This document shows positions 3,316 to 42,108 of a stretch of DNA of 42,194 nt, piece after piece; the stretch's first letter is position 1; every line of letters starts with the position of its first letter. The stretch is from a virus. The translations under genes were made by a program, and so were the position numbers. The stretch spans positions 1 through 42,194 of IMG/VR virus record IMGVR_UViG_3300046836_000222, one strand, 5' to 3'. The notes under the pieces were generated by a model, which saw only the letters and a program-made list of their open reading frames with translations, did no database searches and was not told where the DNA came from.

Positions 3316-3911
3316 CGCTCGAGCCGCATGAGACTAAGCCTCTGAAGGCGCACCGTGAGACGCCCATACATGGCGCCTGGATTCATCGCCAGGATGTGGG
3401 CGATCTGATTTACCGAAATAGGCTCGTCGTCTATCGTTAAGAACCGTAGCGATCTGCGCGTGTTCGCGTCCTGCTGCGCCCGTGTCGCCCAGCGACAATT
3501 GTTTGGTTCGTAATTACCAAACGTGTCGAGGCGATCGAGAGACATGCCGGGTTGACGTTCTCCCATGTCTTCTAGGAAGTTCTCAAAACTGTCCCAGCGG
3601 TCGCAGACCGTGACCCCGACAGCGCCGTACCGGCGATAATTCAGAGACGCTGTATTTGTGCATCTAGACCACATCGACTGCCACGATTTATACGTCACTG
3701 ACCTAGACATACCGTGCGTGCGAATCATGCATCCGCATGATTTTTGATGCCCCCGCCTAACTGCGGAGCCAGAGACGACCTTTTCGACACCACAGTCACA
3801 TCTAACCAGCCAGTGCATGTGTCCATTGCGAACGCCAGCACGCTCTTTCACGACAAGTCTATTGAAACGCAAACCCGTCATGTCTATTGCGAATCGTCCC
3901 TTAATGCCCAC
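3312..3911 (-). CDS. Phage HNH/AP2-like homing-type endonuclease, 199 aa
   Basis: It shows the pattern of a widespread phage protein family: a zinc-ribbon start (CDCGVEKVV...SCGC), then YKSWQSMWSRCTN, YRRYGAVGVTVCDRW, SFENFLEDMGERQPGMSLDR and NYEPNNCRWATRAQQ. In related proteins this block is the nuclease/AP2-type DNA-binding module. A C-terminal helix-turn-helix-like part (PISVNQIAHILAMNPGAMYG) probably reads DNA. Start: GTG at 3911, chosen because GAGG lies 7 nt upstream; it overlaps the end of the previous gene. It is likely a freestanding homing endonuclease. Confidence 0.75.
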   Translation of the reverse strand: MGIKGRFAIDMTGLRFNRLVVKERAGVRNGHMHWLVRCDCGVEKVVSGSAVRRGHQKSCGCMIRTHGMSRSVTYKSWQSMWSRCTNTASLNYRRYGAVGVTVCDRWDSFENFLEDMGERQPGMSLDRLDTFGNYEPNNCRWATRAQQDANTRRSLRFLTIDDEPISVNQIAHILAMNPGAMYGRLTVRLQRLSLMRLER

Positions 3912-31055: not shown

Positions 31056-33196
31056 TACATCACCGGCCTTCCGTCGCGGTTGCCGGTGAGTGCCCCGGCG
31101 TGCTTGTTCACGGGCTCGAGACCACCGGGTGTCCCTTCGAGGGCATGATGCGGTCCCGTCTGGGGAGGCGCGCCGCCGATGCCGGGCGTCTGCGAGCCGA
31201 TGACGTTCCCGGTCCCGGCGCCTGGGGCGACCATGCCGCCGTGGGTCATCTGGAGCATGGTCTGGATCGCGGCCGGATCGACTTGCACACCCAACTTCGT
31301 CAGGATGTCGAGGACCACCGGGTTGCTCATGTCGGCCCCGGTGAAGGAGAGCGCGACCTTGGGCGGCTCCGCTTGCTTGGGAGGAGGCGGTTGCACCATC
31401 TTGGCCGGATCCTTCCCGAAGTCCCGTGCGAGTTGGCGCAAGAGTTCGGGCCGGTTGCTTTCCGGGGCGTTACTCATCAGGTTCGTGTACTGGAGATCTT
31501 GGGCGCGTTTTTGCGCTTCGTCAATCTTTAACTGCGAATCCGGCATGATGTCGTAGGCATACCGCCCCGCAATGAGCGTCTGATCCCACGCCGTGAGGCG
31601 TTTCGTCCCATCCCGTCCCACCCACGCCACGTAGTCCTGCTCGGTGGCGAACCGCTGGAGGAGACTGTCGTACTTCCGCACGCCTTGCAGGATCTGGCTC
31701 ATGAAGCGATCCTGCTCGGCGCTCGTCCGCACGTTGCTCGTGGCCTGGGCGGTGCTGATCTCGGTCGCTGAGAGGACCTTGTCGTTCGTGGTGCCGCTCT
31801 GGTTCGGCCCCAAGGCGAGCGTCTCGTTGATCTTCTGCTCGATCGCGGCCCGGCCTTGGATGTCGGACATCGCCTTCTCAAGACGGGGCAACTGGGCGAT
31901 GACGCGGTCGATTCCCGCCGCCAAGATGGAGGCATCGACGCCGGCGCCGTCCCCTTCGTCCCCAGAGGCGAGAATCTCCAGGGCCGTCTTGATGCGGTGG
32001 TCGTAGAGGAACTTCGGGATGTTGGCATCCCGCATCTTGATGTCCTGGGACACCCAGCGGTTCATCTGCCGCACCAGGGGATCGGTCATCTGGGCATCCG
32101 AGGGCACGTAGGCCGCATCGGGCATGTCCCGCAGCGTCACGACGTGAATCGGATACCCCTCCATCGAGTCCGCCGTGAGGCGTCCACTGTTGGGATCGAG
32201 GCTCTGATACGGGCTCTTGACGTGCTTCGCGGGGGCTTCGAGACCACGCACGAGGACCAGGCGCCGTTGAAGCTGCCGATGGGTGACGGAGCCATCGATG
32301 ACCGCGGGGCGGTACCAGAGTTCTACAAACTCAAGGAGTTGCCCGGTCCCGGCTTCCCGCATGACCCCACCGGTCTGGGGGGTGTCGAAGACGTGCTCAT
32401 CTCGCGTGGCGTTGGGCTCGAAATCGGCTGGGACGAGGCCTTCCTGCTTGGCGAGGGCCAAGGGCTTGACGCCTTGGAAGCCCATCCAGGGGGCATCGTC
32501 GTACCGCTGGGAGCGCCAGTCGTGGGGAATGAGGAGTTTTTTGCTGCTGAACTTCCGCCACGTCCACTCTTCGTGGATCGTCACCGGCACGGGTTCTCCG
32601 GTCATCGGATCGGGGACCGGCACCTTGTCGCATTCGTAGGCGATGTAGGACGGGCCACACCCCGAAACCTGCAAGATGTCAAATAGGAGTTCGTTCGCCA
32701 ACCACTTCAGGTCCACACCCCCGGCCCCGAGCTTCGCCTTGAGGATGGCCTGCTTGATCGAGACGATGTCTTCCGCCGTGTGCTGCTGGCCGTCGGGTCC
32801 GATCGTCACATCCTGCAGGGGGAAGAGCGGGGTCAGGATGAGGTCGGGGCTCCGATAGAAGATCGTATCCTTCTTTTGTTCGGTGTTGCGGAAGTGGATG
32901 TTGCTGTTGAGCGTGTCGGGGTCGGTCGTCGGGAGATACGACCGGAGGAGCGTTTCCCAGCGGGTTTCCCGGTCTTTTCTGGCTCGAACCGCTTGATCGA
33001 CCCGTCCCCACCACGCCGCGAGGTCGTCGGCCGACATCGGGATGGGGGTGTCGTCAATCTTCGGGACCGCGGGAGGCGCCTGTTGCAGCGGCGTCGGCAT
33101 CGGCTGCGCCTGCGCGAGACCGGGGATGGCCGGTGGGGCCATCGGACCCTGTCCACCCATCTGGGGCGGCATCCCCACGGTAGGAGGCGGATACAT
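31055..33196 (-). CDS. Portal protein, 713 aa
   Basis: Immediately follows terL (stop TAG abuts ATG). A disordered Pro/Met/Gly N-terminus precedes ADDLAAWWGRVDQAVRARKD, LLRSYLPTTDPDTLNSNIHF, YRSPDLILTPLFPLQDVTIG. The middle carries LLFDILQVSGCGPSYIAYEC, and a long helical C-terminal part (QFMSQILQGV-like, YAYDIMPDSQLKIDEAQKRA) would form the stem and crown. Its size and order are those of podoviral portals, which form the dodecameric DNA gate. Confidence 0.8.
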   Translation of the reverse strand: MYPPPTVGMPPQMGGQGPMAPPAIPGLAQAQPMPTPLQQAPPAVPKIDDTPIPMSADDLAAWWGRVDQAVRARKDRETRWETLLRSYLPTTDPDTLNSNIHFRNTEQKKDTIFYRSPDLILTPLFPLQDVTIGPDGQQHTAEDIVSIKQAILKAKLGAGGVDLKWLANELLFDILQVSGCGPSYIAYECDKVPVPDPMTGEPVPVTIHEEWTWRKFSSKKLLIPHDWRSQRYDDAPWMGFQGVKPLALAKQEGLVPADFEPNATRDEHVFDTPQTGGVMREAGTGQLLEFVELWYRPAVIDGSVTHRQLQRRLVLVRGLEAPAKHVKSPYQSLDPNSGRLTADSMEGYPIHVVTLRDMPDAAYVPSDAQMTDPLVRQMNRWVSQDIKMRDANIPKFLYDHRIKTALEILASGDEGDGAGVDASILAAGIDRVIAQLPRLEKAMSDIQGRAAIEQKINETLALGPNQSGTTNDKVLSATEISTAQATSNVRTSAEQDRFMSQILQGVRKYDSLLQRFATEQDYVAWVGRDGTKRLTAWDQTLIAGRYAYDIMPDSQLKIDEAQKRAQDLQYTNLMSNAPESNRPELLRQLARDFGKDPAKMVQPPPPKQAEPPKVALSFTGADMSNPVVLDILTKLGVQVDPAAIQTMLQMTHGGMVAPGAGTGNVIGSQTPGIGGAPPQTGPHHALEGTPGGLEPVNKHAGALTGNRDGRPVM

Positions 33197-35719
33197 CTAG
33201 CGGACACCCCAGCGGGAGGGGGCCATCGGCTTGCGGAGGGCTTGTTTCACGAGCGCCCCCACGGTGCCGGGAGAGAACGACGGAGACGACACGGTCCCAA
33301 TAGCGGGAGCGCCGGGGGACATCGCCCCGTAGCGCCACGCGTCACAATTATGCACGAGGACGCCCTCAGCGTAATACTCGCCCGCGTGCTCCACGGTGAG
33401 GTTATAGACCGGGATCCCGCCGCGCACTCTCAATTCCACGCTCTCGACTACGGTAGGCGCAGGAGAGGGAGCAACTACGGGTGGGTGCGTACTTGTTCGC
33501 GCGGAAGGGCGATCCGCACACCACGCAGACGCGATCCACGTCGTCACACCGTTGGGCGCGGCGCCATCGAGACTTACAGACATTCCCGCAGAACCGTCCG
33601 CCGCATTGAGCGGAGACGTCGAGAAAACGCCCGCGACAGTGGTCGCATGACTTCTCCACCCCAGGATGCGGTTTCGCGATGCTGTGCGCGGCCTGCTGCC
33701 GATGCCACGCGCGTCCCTCTGCCGACCGATGCCAATCACGAGAGGCGTCCACCATCTTCGCATGGTGCGTCGGATCGACGGGGCGGCCTTTCGCGTGTTG
33801 GCTGAGATGGTCGAATGCGGGGAGACATTCGAGATTCCCGAGGGCGTTATTGCGTGGATCGTTGTCGCGATGGTGGATGTGATGGCCGCGCGGAATCGGT
33901 CCCACCAGACGACGCCATTTCGCGCGGGCGTCTCGGTGACACCAGGAGAGGTCGGGTCGCTGTCCCATGCCGAGAGTATATCACCGTATCTCAGCGTATC
34001 CATACTCCTAAACTCCCCGTCGGCCCAGATCGGATGATTGTCCGTGCCCAGGAGTGTCCGCCCCGTAGAGAGTTCAACGCTCCATAGTCGATCGGTATAG
34101 CCCGTGACTCCACATGCGCGCACGCCCCGAAGTCCCTGACGCGTCCAGACGCGATCCCCGACGACGATGGTCTCGATCGGCCGTTCTCCGTGTTCCGTCG
34201 CGATCCGTGTGCCGGCAACAAGGCAGGCGTGGTCATCGCCCGTACTGTCACAATCGTCTGGGTTCTGCTTACTGGACTGTATGGAGGGTATCGTACGTGT
34301 CAAGTATCCGGCATCGGGATGGAACACCAGCCACGGGATCCCATCAGGGGCGTCTCGGAGGAGTCCTTGACACCGCTTCCACCCGTTGACGCGGTCGTTG
34401 TCCCCACGGATGATCGGCAGGCCGTAGTAGGAGAGCGTCTGGGCAATCGACTGGCCGAGAAAGCCATCCTTACTATGCGTGGCGCCGGTCTTGTTGAACA
34501 TCGAGGGATCACCGACCGTGTAGGTCGAGGCGCTATCGATCCCTAACTCGGCGTCCCGCGCCAAGACTCGTCTCGCGACTTCGGGTTCATCGAGGCCCTG
34601 AAACTTCCAGTCGTCCCGGATGTACAACCGATGGTCTGGCAGGACCGCCCACCAGAGGACACACCCCGGGGCGTTGAAGCCCCAATCCATCGACCGGAAC
34701 CACCGACATCCACTCGGCGTCCCCCAGTCCCGCACATGGTGAGAGGCCCGGTACCGCGAGAAAAACTGCCCCGCAAAGACCCGCCAGTCCCCGTGTCTGA
34801 GTTGCTCGTACCGCCACCGAGGCAGAATCGCGAGCTTCTGGGACTCGTACTCCGGGTCCTGGTAGGGGTTATCTTCCAGAGACGCCGGCATATAGAGGTA
34901 GTTCTTCGGGTCGTAGACCTTCGCCAAGGCCGGGTAGACCTCGAAGTCCGGCGTATGGTCAATGAAGAAGTCCAGGAGCCACTGACTGCACGGACCCCCA
35001 GGATTGCTCGCGACGAAGAATCGTGGCTTCACCGGACGGCCCGCTTGGTCCCGGTACACCTCTCTGGCGCGGGTAGACAGTTCCCCCAAGGGACTGATGC
35101 CGTCATCCATCAAGGGGTACTGGGAACCCTCCTCCGCCACAATCGCCCCGTAGTTCGTGCCCAGATGGTGCCGAATCGCCGCCGCATCGCTCATGTGCCC
35201 ACAGTCGATGTAACTCCCGCTCGAGGGGAAGTAGACCTGCGCCGGCGGTCCCTGCTTAAACACCCCGCCCAGCAGCGGGACTTCCTGCTCCATAAACCGC
35301 AAGTGCGTCTTTTTGAGTTCGTCGTTCGTCTCCCGCAATAACAACGCCGTATGCCCCGGCGTCATCAACGACCGCCGATACAACCACCACCGCATCCCGT
35401 GACTCTTCCCAGGCCCCGCCTGCCCGCCCCACAGCACATACGGCGCGTCCGTCTCCTCAAACGCACACTGGCTCGGAAGAGGCAAGTTCAGACACCGCTT
35501 CCCCGCCTCCCCGCCCAACTCCTTCGCCGCCTTCACCGAGACGTCCACGATGATCGCCCCATCGACCTGCTTCTGCGTACACGGCGGGTGCGCACAGAAC
35601 CAACACCGCCGCCCCAGAAACTCCCCCACCACCATCGGTCCCTTGCACCAGGTGCAGATGGCCATGTGGTGCTTGGTCCCTATCGGGTCACGAAGCAGGT
35701 CTGCGTAGACCGGACTCAT
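33197..35719 (-). CDS. terL: Terminase large subunit interrupted by an intein, 840 aa
   Basis: Start ATG 35719 overlaps the upstream HNH stop by ATGA. N-terminal zinc finger (CTWCKG...CWFCAHPPC). ATPase domain: Walker A GGQAGPGKSHG, Walker B-type YGAIVAEEGSQ, motif III FFVASNPGG. Nuclease domain: FRSMDWGFNAP (first acid), TYTVGDPSMFN (second acid), and GDDHA-CDAWRYG (third acid), where the intein is inserted between A and C. After splicing the extein is about 547 aa, normal for TerL. It cuts and translocates DNA into the head. Activity should require splicing because the third acidic motif is split. Confidence 0.9.
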   Translation of the reverse strand: MSPVYADLLRDPIGTKHHMAICTWCKGPMVVGEFLGRRCWFCAHPPCTQKQVDGAIIVDVSVKAAKELGGEAGKRCLNLPLPSQCAFEETDAPYVLWGGQAGPGKSHGMRWWLYRRSLMTPGHTALLLRETNDELKKTHLRFMEQEVPLLGGVFKQGPPAQVYFPSSGSYIDCGHMSDAAAIRHHLGTNYGAIVAEEGSQYPLMDDGISPLGELSTRAREVYRDQAGRPVKPRFFVASNPGGPCSQWLLDFFIDHTPDFEVYPALAKVYDPKNYLYMPASLEDNPYQDPEYESQKLAILPRWRYEQLRHGDWRVFAGQFFSRYRASHHVRDWGTPSGCRWFRSMDWGFNAPGCVLWWAVLPDHRLYIRDDWKFQGLDEPEVARRVLARDAELGIDSASTYTVGDPSMFNKTGATHSKDGFLGQSIAQTLSYYGLPIIRGDNDRVNGWKRCQGLLRDAPDGIPWLVFHPDAGYLTRTIPSIQSSKQNPDDCDSTGDDHACLVAGTRIATEHGERPIETIVVGDRVWTRQGLRGVRACGVTGYTDRLWSVELSTGRTLLGTDNHPIWADGEFRSMDTLRYGDILSAWDSDPTSPGVTETPARNGVVWWDRFRAAITSTIATTIHAITPSGISNVSPHSTISANTRKAAPSIRRTMRRWWTPLVIGIGRQRDARGIGSRPRTASRNRILGWRSHATTVAGVFSTSPLNAADGSAGMSVSLDGAAPNGVTTWIASAWCADRPSARTSTHPPVVAPSPAPTVVESVELRVRGGIPVYNLTVEHAGEYYAEGVLVHNCDAWRYGAMSPGAPAIGTVSSPSFSPGTVGALVKQALRKPMAPSRWGVR
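33402..33968 (-). CDS. HNH endonuclease encoded out of frame inside the intein, 188 aa
   Basis: MGQRPDLSWCHRDARAKWRR, then GHHIHHRDNDPRNNALGNLE, a typical HNH core with HH...N...H; next a WH.S.EG..WH repeat (SRDWHRSAEGRAWHRQQ), and two zinc fingers (CDHCRGRFLDV ... FCGNVCKSRWRR, CVVCGSPF ... CSLSCA). This is the family usually fused in frame within phage inteins, but here it lies in a different frame, with TGA upstream and TAA at 33402. It has its own extended -10 promoter and no RBS. Probable homing nuclease of the intein. Confidence 0.75.
   Translation of the reverse strand: MGQRPDLSWCHRDARAKWRRLVGPIPRGHHIHHRDNDPRNNALGNLECLPAFDHLSQHAKGRPVDPTHHAKMVDASRDWHRSAEGRAWHRQQAAHSIAKPHPGVEKSCDHCRGRFLDVSAQCGGRFCGNVCKSRWRRAQRCDDVDRVCVVCGSPFRANKYAPTRSCSLSCAYRSRERGIESARRDPGL
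33975..34002 (-). promoter_or_regulatory. Promoter of the intein-internal HNH gene
   Basis: Minus strand: TGA-TATACT (extended -10, hexamer at 33980-33975) lies 6 nt before the ATG at 33968; TGGATA with a 16-nt spacer is a possible -35. Directly upstream are two tandem 10-bp repeats with one mismatch (33991-34000 GATACGCTGA and 33981-33990 GATACGGTGA). The sequence also codes for the intein. Confidence 0.5.
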
Positions 35720-36150
35720 CGATGGCCCTTCGGACCCCAGCGGGCAAACCGGGTCGCCACCGCCTTCGCACGAGACGCCGCCGCTTCGGGTGCGTGTTCC
35801 TTCATATGGCACCAGACGCACAGACGCTCAAGGTTCTCCAGCCTGTTGTCCAGAAAGTCCCGGTTCTTGTGGTGCAGGCACGACTGGCGCGTCTCCCCAC
35901 AGCGTTCACAGGGCCGAGGCGGGTAGTGACGTCTCGCCCACCCCAACGCCCCAGACCGTGTCGTGAACGGCTTCGACGGATCCCGCGCGACGAACAGCCC
36001 CCTCGACGCCAACGCCTCACGCGCACAGACCGCTCCGCAATACACCATCCGCCGGTACTGCCACCGCCCACGCGCCCTCGCTTGCGCATCCTGACTCTCC
36101 GCGTTTGGGACATCCAGCGCCGCTTGACACCATCGGCATACACGTTCCAT
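35716..36150 (-). CDS. HNH endonuclease before terL, 144 aa
   Basis: N-terminal zinc finger (CRWCQAALDV ... YCGAVCAREA), then PPRPCERCGETRQSCLHHKN, FLDNRLENLERLCVWCHMKE: a compact HNH with HH and a final H. It overlaps terL by ATGA. HNH proteins next to terminase often assist DNA packaging in cos phages, but many are homing enzymes; both remain possible. It has its own promoter (extended -10 with 6 nt to ATG). Confidence 0.8.
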   Translation of the reverse strand: MERVCRWCQAALDVPNAESQDAQARARGRWQYRRMVYCGAVCAREALASRGLFVARDPSKPFTTRSGALGWARRHYPPRPCERCGETRQSCLHHKNRDFLDNRLENLERLCVWCHMKEHAPEAAASRAKAVATRFARWGPKGHR

Positions 36151-41148: not shown

Positions 41149-42108
41149 CTAGCGTGCCCTCCGGTCTTCGACGACACCCGCTAACGATGAAGATTCTGAC
41201 GCGCGTGGACGGCGTTCCCGGTCTTTAGCATGGGGATCTACCGCGGCGTCGAACGAAAAGGCTCCTGGCTTCGCTCGCGGAATCTTATCGAACAACCGGC
41301 CTGGTTCCGTCTCGCGGAGGCGCTTCGCGGCAACCGCGCAATACTTCTCCTCGCGCTCGATGAGGATAGCTTTGCGACCGTTTAGCTTGGCTGCAACTCC
41401 GGTCGTTCCGCTGCCAGCGAAAGGATCGAGGATTGTTTCCCCTTCGTCGGTGAATAGCGTCAGTAGTTCTATCATCAAGCCATCCGGCTTTGTAGTTGGG
41501 TGCAGAAGCCCCTGTGTGTTCGGCTTTGCGTATGTGAACACGCCAACTTTTCCACCACCATTCCACCTACTAAGTCCCGCGGAATGACATGCAACGATCG
41601 TTTCGTAGCCCATACCGGGACGATCGCCGCTAAACTGCGGCTGAGCGCCAGGCTTCACCCATACGCACCACCTACGGCGCGTCAGGTCTCCGCTCTCGGT
41701 GAGGGCCATCTCCCATTTGTGCGCTCCCTCGGCTTGGCAGAACACGAGCACCCAACGACTAGCTATCACACCAATTAATCGCGCCACTTCCGTGCGCTCC
41801 TTGTGCGTGATGGCAGGAAACGGAAGCGTTTCGTAACGAGGCGTGCCCTTGGCGTCAATCCATGCCCACTCGTCCTGCGCTGGCATTCCGGAACGCTTCA
41901 CACGACGGCCTTTGGAATGCGCCTCTGCCTCGTAGGGCGGATCGGTAATAACGTGATCGACGGCATCGATCGTCGGCAGAATATCAAAGCAATCCCCGTG
42001 ATACAGCCGCACGCTCTCGTCTTCGTAGTAAACGCGCGGAGCCGTCTCGATGCGGTTTTCGCGGAGATCCTGTCGTTCGCGCGCATCCGATGGTTCGCTA
42101 GCGCGCAT
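41149..42108 (-). CDS. DNA methyltransferase (N6-adenine or N4-cytosine, DPPY type), 319 aa
   Basis: Motif IV DPPY (ITDPPYEAEAHSKG, about residue 57) precedes motif I DPFAGSGTTGVAAKLNGRKA (about 233-252): the beta-class order. LYHGDCFDILPTI is the usual N-terminal signature before DPPY, and LHPTTKPDGLMIEL (motif X-like) precedes motif I. It transfers methyl groups from S-adenosylmethionine to DNA bases and would protect phage DNA from host restriction; no cognate restriction enzyme is seen. ATG 42108 overlaps the upstream ORF by 11 nt. The C-terminal tail is charged and variable. Confidence 0.85.
   Translation of the reverse strand: MRASEPSDARERQDLRENRIETAPRVYYEDESVRLYHGDCFDILPTIDAVDHVITDPPYEAEAHSKGRRVKRSGMPAQDEWAWIDAKGTPRYETLPFPAITHKERTEVARLIGVIASRWVLVFCQAEGAHKWEMALTESGDLTRRRWCVWVKPGAQPQFSGDRPGMGYETIVACHSAGLSRWNGGGKVGVFTYAKPNTQGLLHPTTKPDGLMIELLTLFTDEGETILDPFAGSGTTGVAAKLNGRKAILIEREEKYCAVAAKRLRETEPGRLFDKIPRAKPGAFSFDAAVDPHAKDRERRPRASESSSLAGVVEDRRAR

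Follow-up and report, generated by a model that had tools for sequence, protein, structure and literature searches.

I-HmuI is an intron-encoded HNH homing endonuclease, and the fractured genes reportedly described by Dassa in 2009 carry inteins that are split, with an endonuclease standing free between the two parts. Homing inteins have been described as single proteins that combine splicing and endonuclease domains; mycobacteriophage inteins in the large terminase subunit (TerL) are among the canonical examples (Kelley 2016, PMC5050341). The nearest published case to the locus considered here is the ShiLan domain, an HNH endonuclease hidden in the methylase of a mycobacteriophage (Arsenault, Gosselin, Gogarten 2025, PMC11855218). 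A preprint on actinobacteriophage inteins (bioRxiv 10.1101/2025.01.02.630785) may already describe the same overlapping layout, to go by the phrase "non-canonical architecture" in its title and by its citation for overlapping frames in PMC11855218.

Here we analyse a stretch of viral DNA of 42,194 nucleotides (the window) in which the two functions appear to be decoupled on common DNA. We hold it to be highly probable that the window carries a homing intein in the TerL nuclease motif D/NHxxDAxRY, and that its endonuclease would be translated separately, from an overprinted HNH gene.

The TerL intein and its nested HNH gene

The features of the locus, all on the minus strand, are as follows.

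33197..35821 (-): TerL ORF, interrupted by the intein and open throughout (PHROG 2 terminase large subunit, 1.4e-23)
33347..34225 (-): predicted intein of 293 aa, from C1 to H-N, then Cys+1 (Hint_2 above its curated cut-off; TIGR01443)
33962..34225 (-): N-terminal Hint half of the intein, residues 1-88 (pLDDT 97-98 over most; C1, T61, H64)
33461..33961 (-): the HNH DNA as read in the intein frame, an unstructured linker or "shadow" (pLDDT 39-56 over most, all coil)
33347..33460 (-): C-terminal Hint half of the intein, residues 256-293 (pLDDT 94-98 for most; TIGR01443)
33402..33968 (-): HNH endonuclease gene of 188 aa, nested in the intein and read in its -1 frame (HNH_3, 4e-10; PHROG 15471, 2e-29; pLDDT 91.6)
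33795..33926 (-): HNH catalytic core HH...NN...N...H, HNH residues 15-58 (H32, H33, N41, N45 and H54 invariant)
33576..33647 (-): first Cys4 zinc finger, C108/C111/C127/C131 of the HNH protein (invariant columns)
33459..33527 (-): second Cys4 zinc finger, C148/C151/C166/C170 of the HNH protein (invariant columns)
33981..33983 (-): TGA in the HNH frame, from intein codons GGT GAT (Gly-Asp), just before the HNH ATG
33980..33985 (-): GGTGAT, a possible extended Shine-Dalgarno (SD) element with long spacing to the ATG (anti-SD pairing -9.0 kcal/mol)
33402..33404 (-): TAA stop of the HNH gene, from intein codons TAT AAC, the Tyr-Asn of block F motif VYNLTV

TerL probably starts at the ATG at 35719..35717. 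The splice motifs of its insert are intact, with CLVAGT at the N side and VLVHN|C at the C side; the latter provides the C-terminal His-Asn that in inteins precedes Cys, Ser or Thr, and TIGR01443 (intein_Cterm) matches at 23.9 bits against a cut-off of 15.6. The nucleophile C1 and the block B residues T61xxH64 are present; in a 57-row alignment C1 and H64 are invariant and T61 nearly so, and the splice residues are conserved among relatives on both sides of the HNH gene. AlphaFold models the Hint halves at a pLDDT of about 94-98 and the linker between them at 39-56, and Foldseek matches the fold to the DnaB and gp41-1 inteins (E about 1e-5). The in-frame insert has no counterpart in the TerL of two sister phages (L173 and L174; 86-90% DNA identity), which reads GDDHA|LDAWRYG, with Leu at the position where the window has Cys+1, and blastn alignments to these empty-site relatives break exactly at the intein ends, 34225 and 33347. 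By its nucleophile, TxxH and His-Asn|Cys motifs, Hint fold and empty homologues the element classifies as an intein, and splicing is predicted. It lies in the motif DHxxDAxRY, presumably part of the C-terminal nuclease domain of TerL, and a single ORF spans it, the halves of a split intein being on separate ORFs.

Two other ORFs of the window bear mention. Directly upstream of TerL is a second, free-standing HNH-like ORF (35716-36150, minus strand), whose 3' end runs into the beginning of the TerL ORF and which matches HNH_3 and PHROG 7545, both weakly; at 41149-42108 (minus strand) there is a DNA methyltransferase (PHROG 67, 1.2e-49).

The nested gene occupies the place of the endonuclease domain of a canonical intein, between blocks B and F, with codon starts offset by two from the intein codons, that is, in the -1 frame. 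Its product matches HNH_3 at 39.5 bits (cut-off 24.8), and the HNH motif residues and zinc-binding cysteines that mark HNH homing endonucleases are invariant in a 72-row alignment. The AlphaFold model has a mean pLDDT of 91.6 (alignments for structure prediction left out rows from database records); a Foldseek search with it returned no strong whole-fold match, only zinc-finger pieces. At E <= 0.01 the sole PDB sequence match of the HNH profile is I-HmuI (1u3e, E 0.009), over the HNH core. A group I intron around the gene was rejected, as Rfam gave no intron match in 32900-34600. An earlier note, made from the letters alone, had reported this complete HNH gene with two zinc fingers, out of frame in an open TerL intein, and its coordinates proved exact; it also pointed out that, with a TGA upstream of the ATG (33983..33981) and a TAA inside the intein (33404..33402), no single frameshift can join the HNH protein to the intein. 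The overlap of this TAA with the Tyr-Asn codons of block F is common among relatives too.

Frame usage and selection among relatives

IMG/VR and GTDB genomes were searched with the HNH family and IMG/VR was then searched with the intein, frames being scored with profile HMMs of both Hint halves. This HNH family is enclosed within a continuous intein frame in 109 TerL-type inteins, 92 of them non-redundant at 95% identity. All 92 non-redundant loci carry the gene in the -1 frame, and neither survey gave a case in frame or in +1; the canonical arrangement, with the endonuclease in frame with the intein, was found in 0 of the 109. These surveys do not support the expectation in the earlier note that the family is normally fused in frame in inteins. 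Nor is the invasive gene of that note a one-off case; it belongs to a widespread, old architecture in which HNH and Hint distances are correlated (Mantel r 0.45, 0/2000 permutations), which indicates that both mostly travel together. PHROG 2 (TerL) is matched by 57 of 65 host genes, and insertions among relatives cluster in the same TerL motif.

Three named phages have the nested layout: Acinetobacter phage Highwayman (L004, OZ038341, 2375-3019), Tetrasphaera phage TJE1 (L005, HQ225832, 2387-3028) and Rhodobacteraceae phage MD07 (L006, OP947163, 2405-2887). Their records give TerL only and leave the nested HNH gene unannotated, a warning that automatic annotation misses such endonucleases. Two further loci (L065, 3801-4637; L099, 3807-4643) have an HNH gene with an open -1 frame and undetected Hint halves; they are either divergent inteins or a ShiLan-like case.

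Because continuity defines the nested set, its zero stops are partly by construction, and the fair count is the unconditional one: of the 83 HNH loci that the first survey found between two Hint halves, 74 are free of -1 stops, where synonymous shuffling predicts about 12. HNH relatives that stand free show no such depletion (75 stops versus 80 expected), and in the +1 frame it is slight (1162 versus 1231). Under codon shuffling the HNH genes would have about 2-4 stops per gene in the -1 frame and about 16-17 in +1. These proteins are rich in Lys, Asn and Glu and poor in Leu and Met, which gives few -1 stops and many +1 stops and is probably why -1 is the sole frame used.

Relatives differ from one another mainly by substitutions at position 3 of the HNH codons (intein position 2), and they are nearly always more alike in the HNH frame than in the intein frame (identity 0.60 versus 0.37 between the window and its relative L001; 0.85 versus 0.66 between L041 and L045). 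Stop-prone NTR codons (NTA/NTG) make up 3.6% of nested HNH genes against 7.4% of free ones (p=1e-8), and Met is also avoided in the nested genes. From the substitution pattern, the identities and this avoidance, we conclude that the HNH frame is the conserved frame, its protein kept by selection, and that the Hint halves are selected as proteins, the shadow being selected mainly for absence of stops, a picture with which the AlphaFold models agree. Selection on the linker beyond stop avoidance was considered and rejected: over 559 pairs, intein-frame identity is 0.248 against 0.234 expected from HNH constraint alone, a weak excess at most. The earlier note had read the intein frame here as a foldless shadow, in keeping with the all-coil model, and had proposed comparing both frames with related inteins and the changes in each; the comparison has the HNH gene always in -1, with conserved splice residues, and the HNH frame as the conserved one. 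The linker is predicted to be flexible and to lie within a Hint loop. Tolerance of inteins for such long disordered linkers could be used in protein engineering, and these loci form a large natural set for measuring the evolution of overlapping genes.

Mobility, translation and competing explanations

L154, which belongs to one phage lineage with L001 (84-86% identity), has lost exactly 414 bp (138 codons) from its HNH gene with the intein frame left intact, and the survey contains nine HNH-free mini-inteins; an intein can therefore persist without its HNH gene. One HNH-free TerL mini-intein (L172, 1729-3642; BK063680, vir335) is from a virus assigned to Methanomassiliicoccales archaea. Empty sites, the L154 deletion and mini-inteins fit the known cycle of invasion, decay and loss of homing elements, in which the HNH enzyme is probably the agent spreading the intein, through a predicted cleavage. 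As to the suggestion in the earlier note that gene and intein can each move or act separately, mini-inteins and free-standing HNH relatives do exist and back it in part.

Nested, free and split states are intermixed in the HNH tree, where well-supported branches require the nested label to have changed at least seven times. Hint halves lie on separate ORFs in eleven loci, most of which look like split inteins with a gene of the same HNH family between the halves. In seven loci (L063, L073, L086, L095, L100, L103 and L105) TerL is in two ORFs with an intein half each and the same HNH family between; these are likely naturally split inteins. In L096 the N- and C-intein ORFs overlap (3792-3866) through a frame change just ahead of the HNH gene, likely a frameshift or assembly error, since its nearest relatives are continuous. 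As for co-conversion, the 50 bp immediately upstream of the insertion in the window have only 68% identity to both empty alleles, which match each other there; the case is weak, another block being equally low in identity.

That the layout is an artefact, the in-frame HNH of a normal intein broken by two indels in sequencing or assembly, is hardly conceivable: the window is a single viral contig, as such an error would allow, but the frame is identical in 109 copies, named phage genomes included, without one in-frame case, and a layout that recurs in dozens of phages is no accident of sequencing. Frame errors and in-frame homologues were the two findings that the earlier note had named as fatal to its reading, and these copies exclude both. 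It is also very improbable that the HNH gene is real and the intein frame, open by chance at high GC, belongs to a split or dead intein. In the window alone (64% GC), 67% of synonymous shuffles of the HNH gene leave the intein frame uninterrupted (P=0.67), and an open second frame there is unremarkable by itself and means little. The comparative evidence decides the question of chance: in relatives at 31-68% GC the frame is open where 155 stops would be expected, splice motifs are conserved on both sides and the full Hint fold is recovered by AlphaFold.

Expression of the HNH protein could take another route, as a fusion made by programmed -1 frameshifting from the TerL/intein frame. The frame is invariably -1, the overlap holds somewhat more slippery heptamers than expected (17 versus 8.5), and an ATG or GTG in the expected place is absent in 7 of 72 relatives. 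However, only 14 of 72 loci contain slippery sites, some of these sites lie past the HNH start, and the window, where the TGA only 12 bases ahead of the ATG leaves a very short overlap for a shift, has none. The window start is without a canonical Shine-Dalgarno; its sole candidate, GGTGAT, is badly spaced, and although only 3% of control positions pair with the anti-SD as strongly, it is suggestive only, as it also encodes the conserved intein Gly-Asp. Across relatives, 25 of 65 loci have SD-like motifs ahead of the nested start against 7.4 expected, and this enrichment, with anti-SD pairing above control positions, favours internal initiation and makes frameshifting quite unlikely. We regard as distinctly improbable a role of the HNH protein as a terminase partner in phage DNA packaging instead of homing. 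Host genes are nearly all TerL, other HNH relatives adjoin TerL, and HNH proteins near terminases act in DNA packaging; yet the whole element is absent from close relatives, the HNH gene is gutted in L154 and missing from nine inteins, and the insert sits in a conserved motif, as is typical of homing targets.

We therefore prefer the homing intein with an overprinted endonuclease, as the earlier note had in essence proposed; frame counts, conservation and AlphaFold models strongly support dual coding by a free-standing homing-type gene in the intein. TerL mRNA would have two modes of translation. One, from the TerL start, would make a precursor that splices itself to active TerL; the other, initiated internally at the nested ATG, would yield the HNH protein, which would cut intein-less TerL alleles at the conserved motif; repair of the cut allele would then copy the whole element in. 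A broader reading has, in our judgement, an even chance: that dual coding is obligate in an entire class of phage inteins, with endonuclease and splicing element as distinct proteins encoded over one another, free HNH genes having entered or left the overlap several times, always in -1, the only frame of an HNH gene that is nearly stop-free. If so, overprinting would offer homing genes a general way to colonise inteins. It also becomes testable whether separate translation avoids the cost of an endonuclease domain inside the intein.

Comparison with known systems

With canonical homing inteins (PMC5050341) the window element shares the Hint splicing domain, an endonuclease between the splicing halves and TerL as a favourite host, whereas there the endonuclease is an in-frame domain of the intein protein, and the TerL inteins lie in the ATPase domain, not in the motif DHxxDAxRY. 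Fractured genes have in common with it a free-standing endonuclease between intein halves, and such TerL loci were found with the same HNH family; there, however, the intein is two proteins, while in the window its frame runs through the HNH gene. I-HmuI differs in being intron-encoded, and the window HNH protein has two Cys4 zinc fingers after its core.

The likeness to ShiLan (PMC11855218) extends to an out-of-frame HNH of about 195 aa, zinc fingers, an open host frame, a TAAC end and a patchy distribution; the window repeats the out-of-frame HNH gene with an open host frame. ShiLan has no detectable splicing domain, so that its host protein would keep the insert. In the window, where the host is TerL, the HNH gene is flanked by a complete Hint intein, and the shadow peptide could consequently be spliced out.
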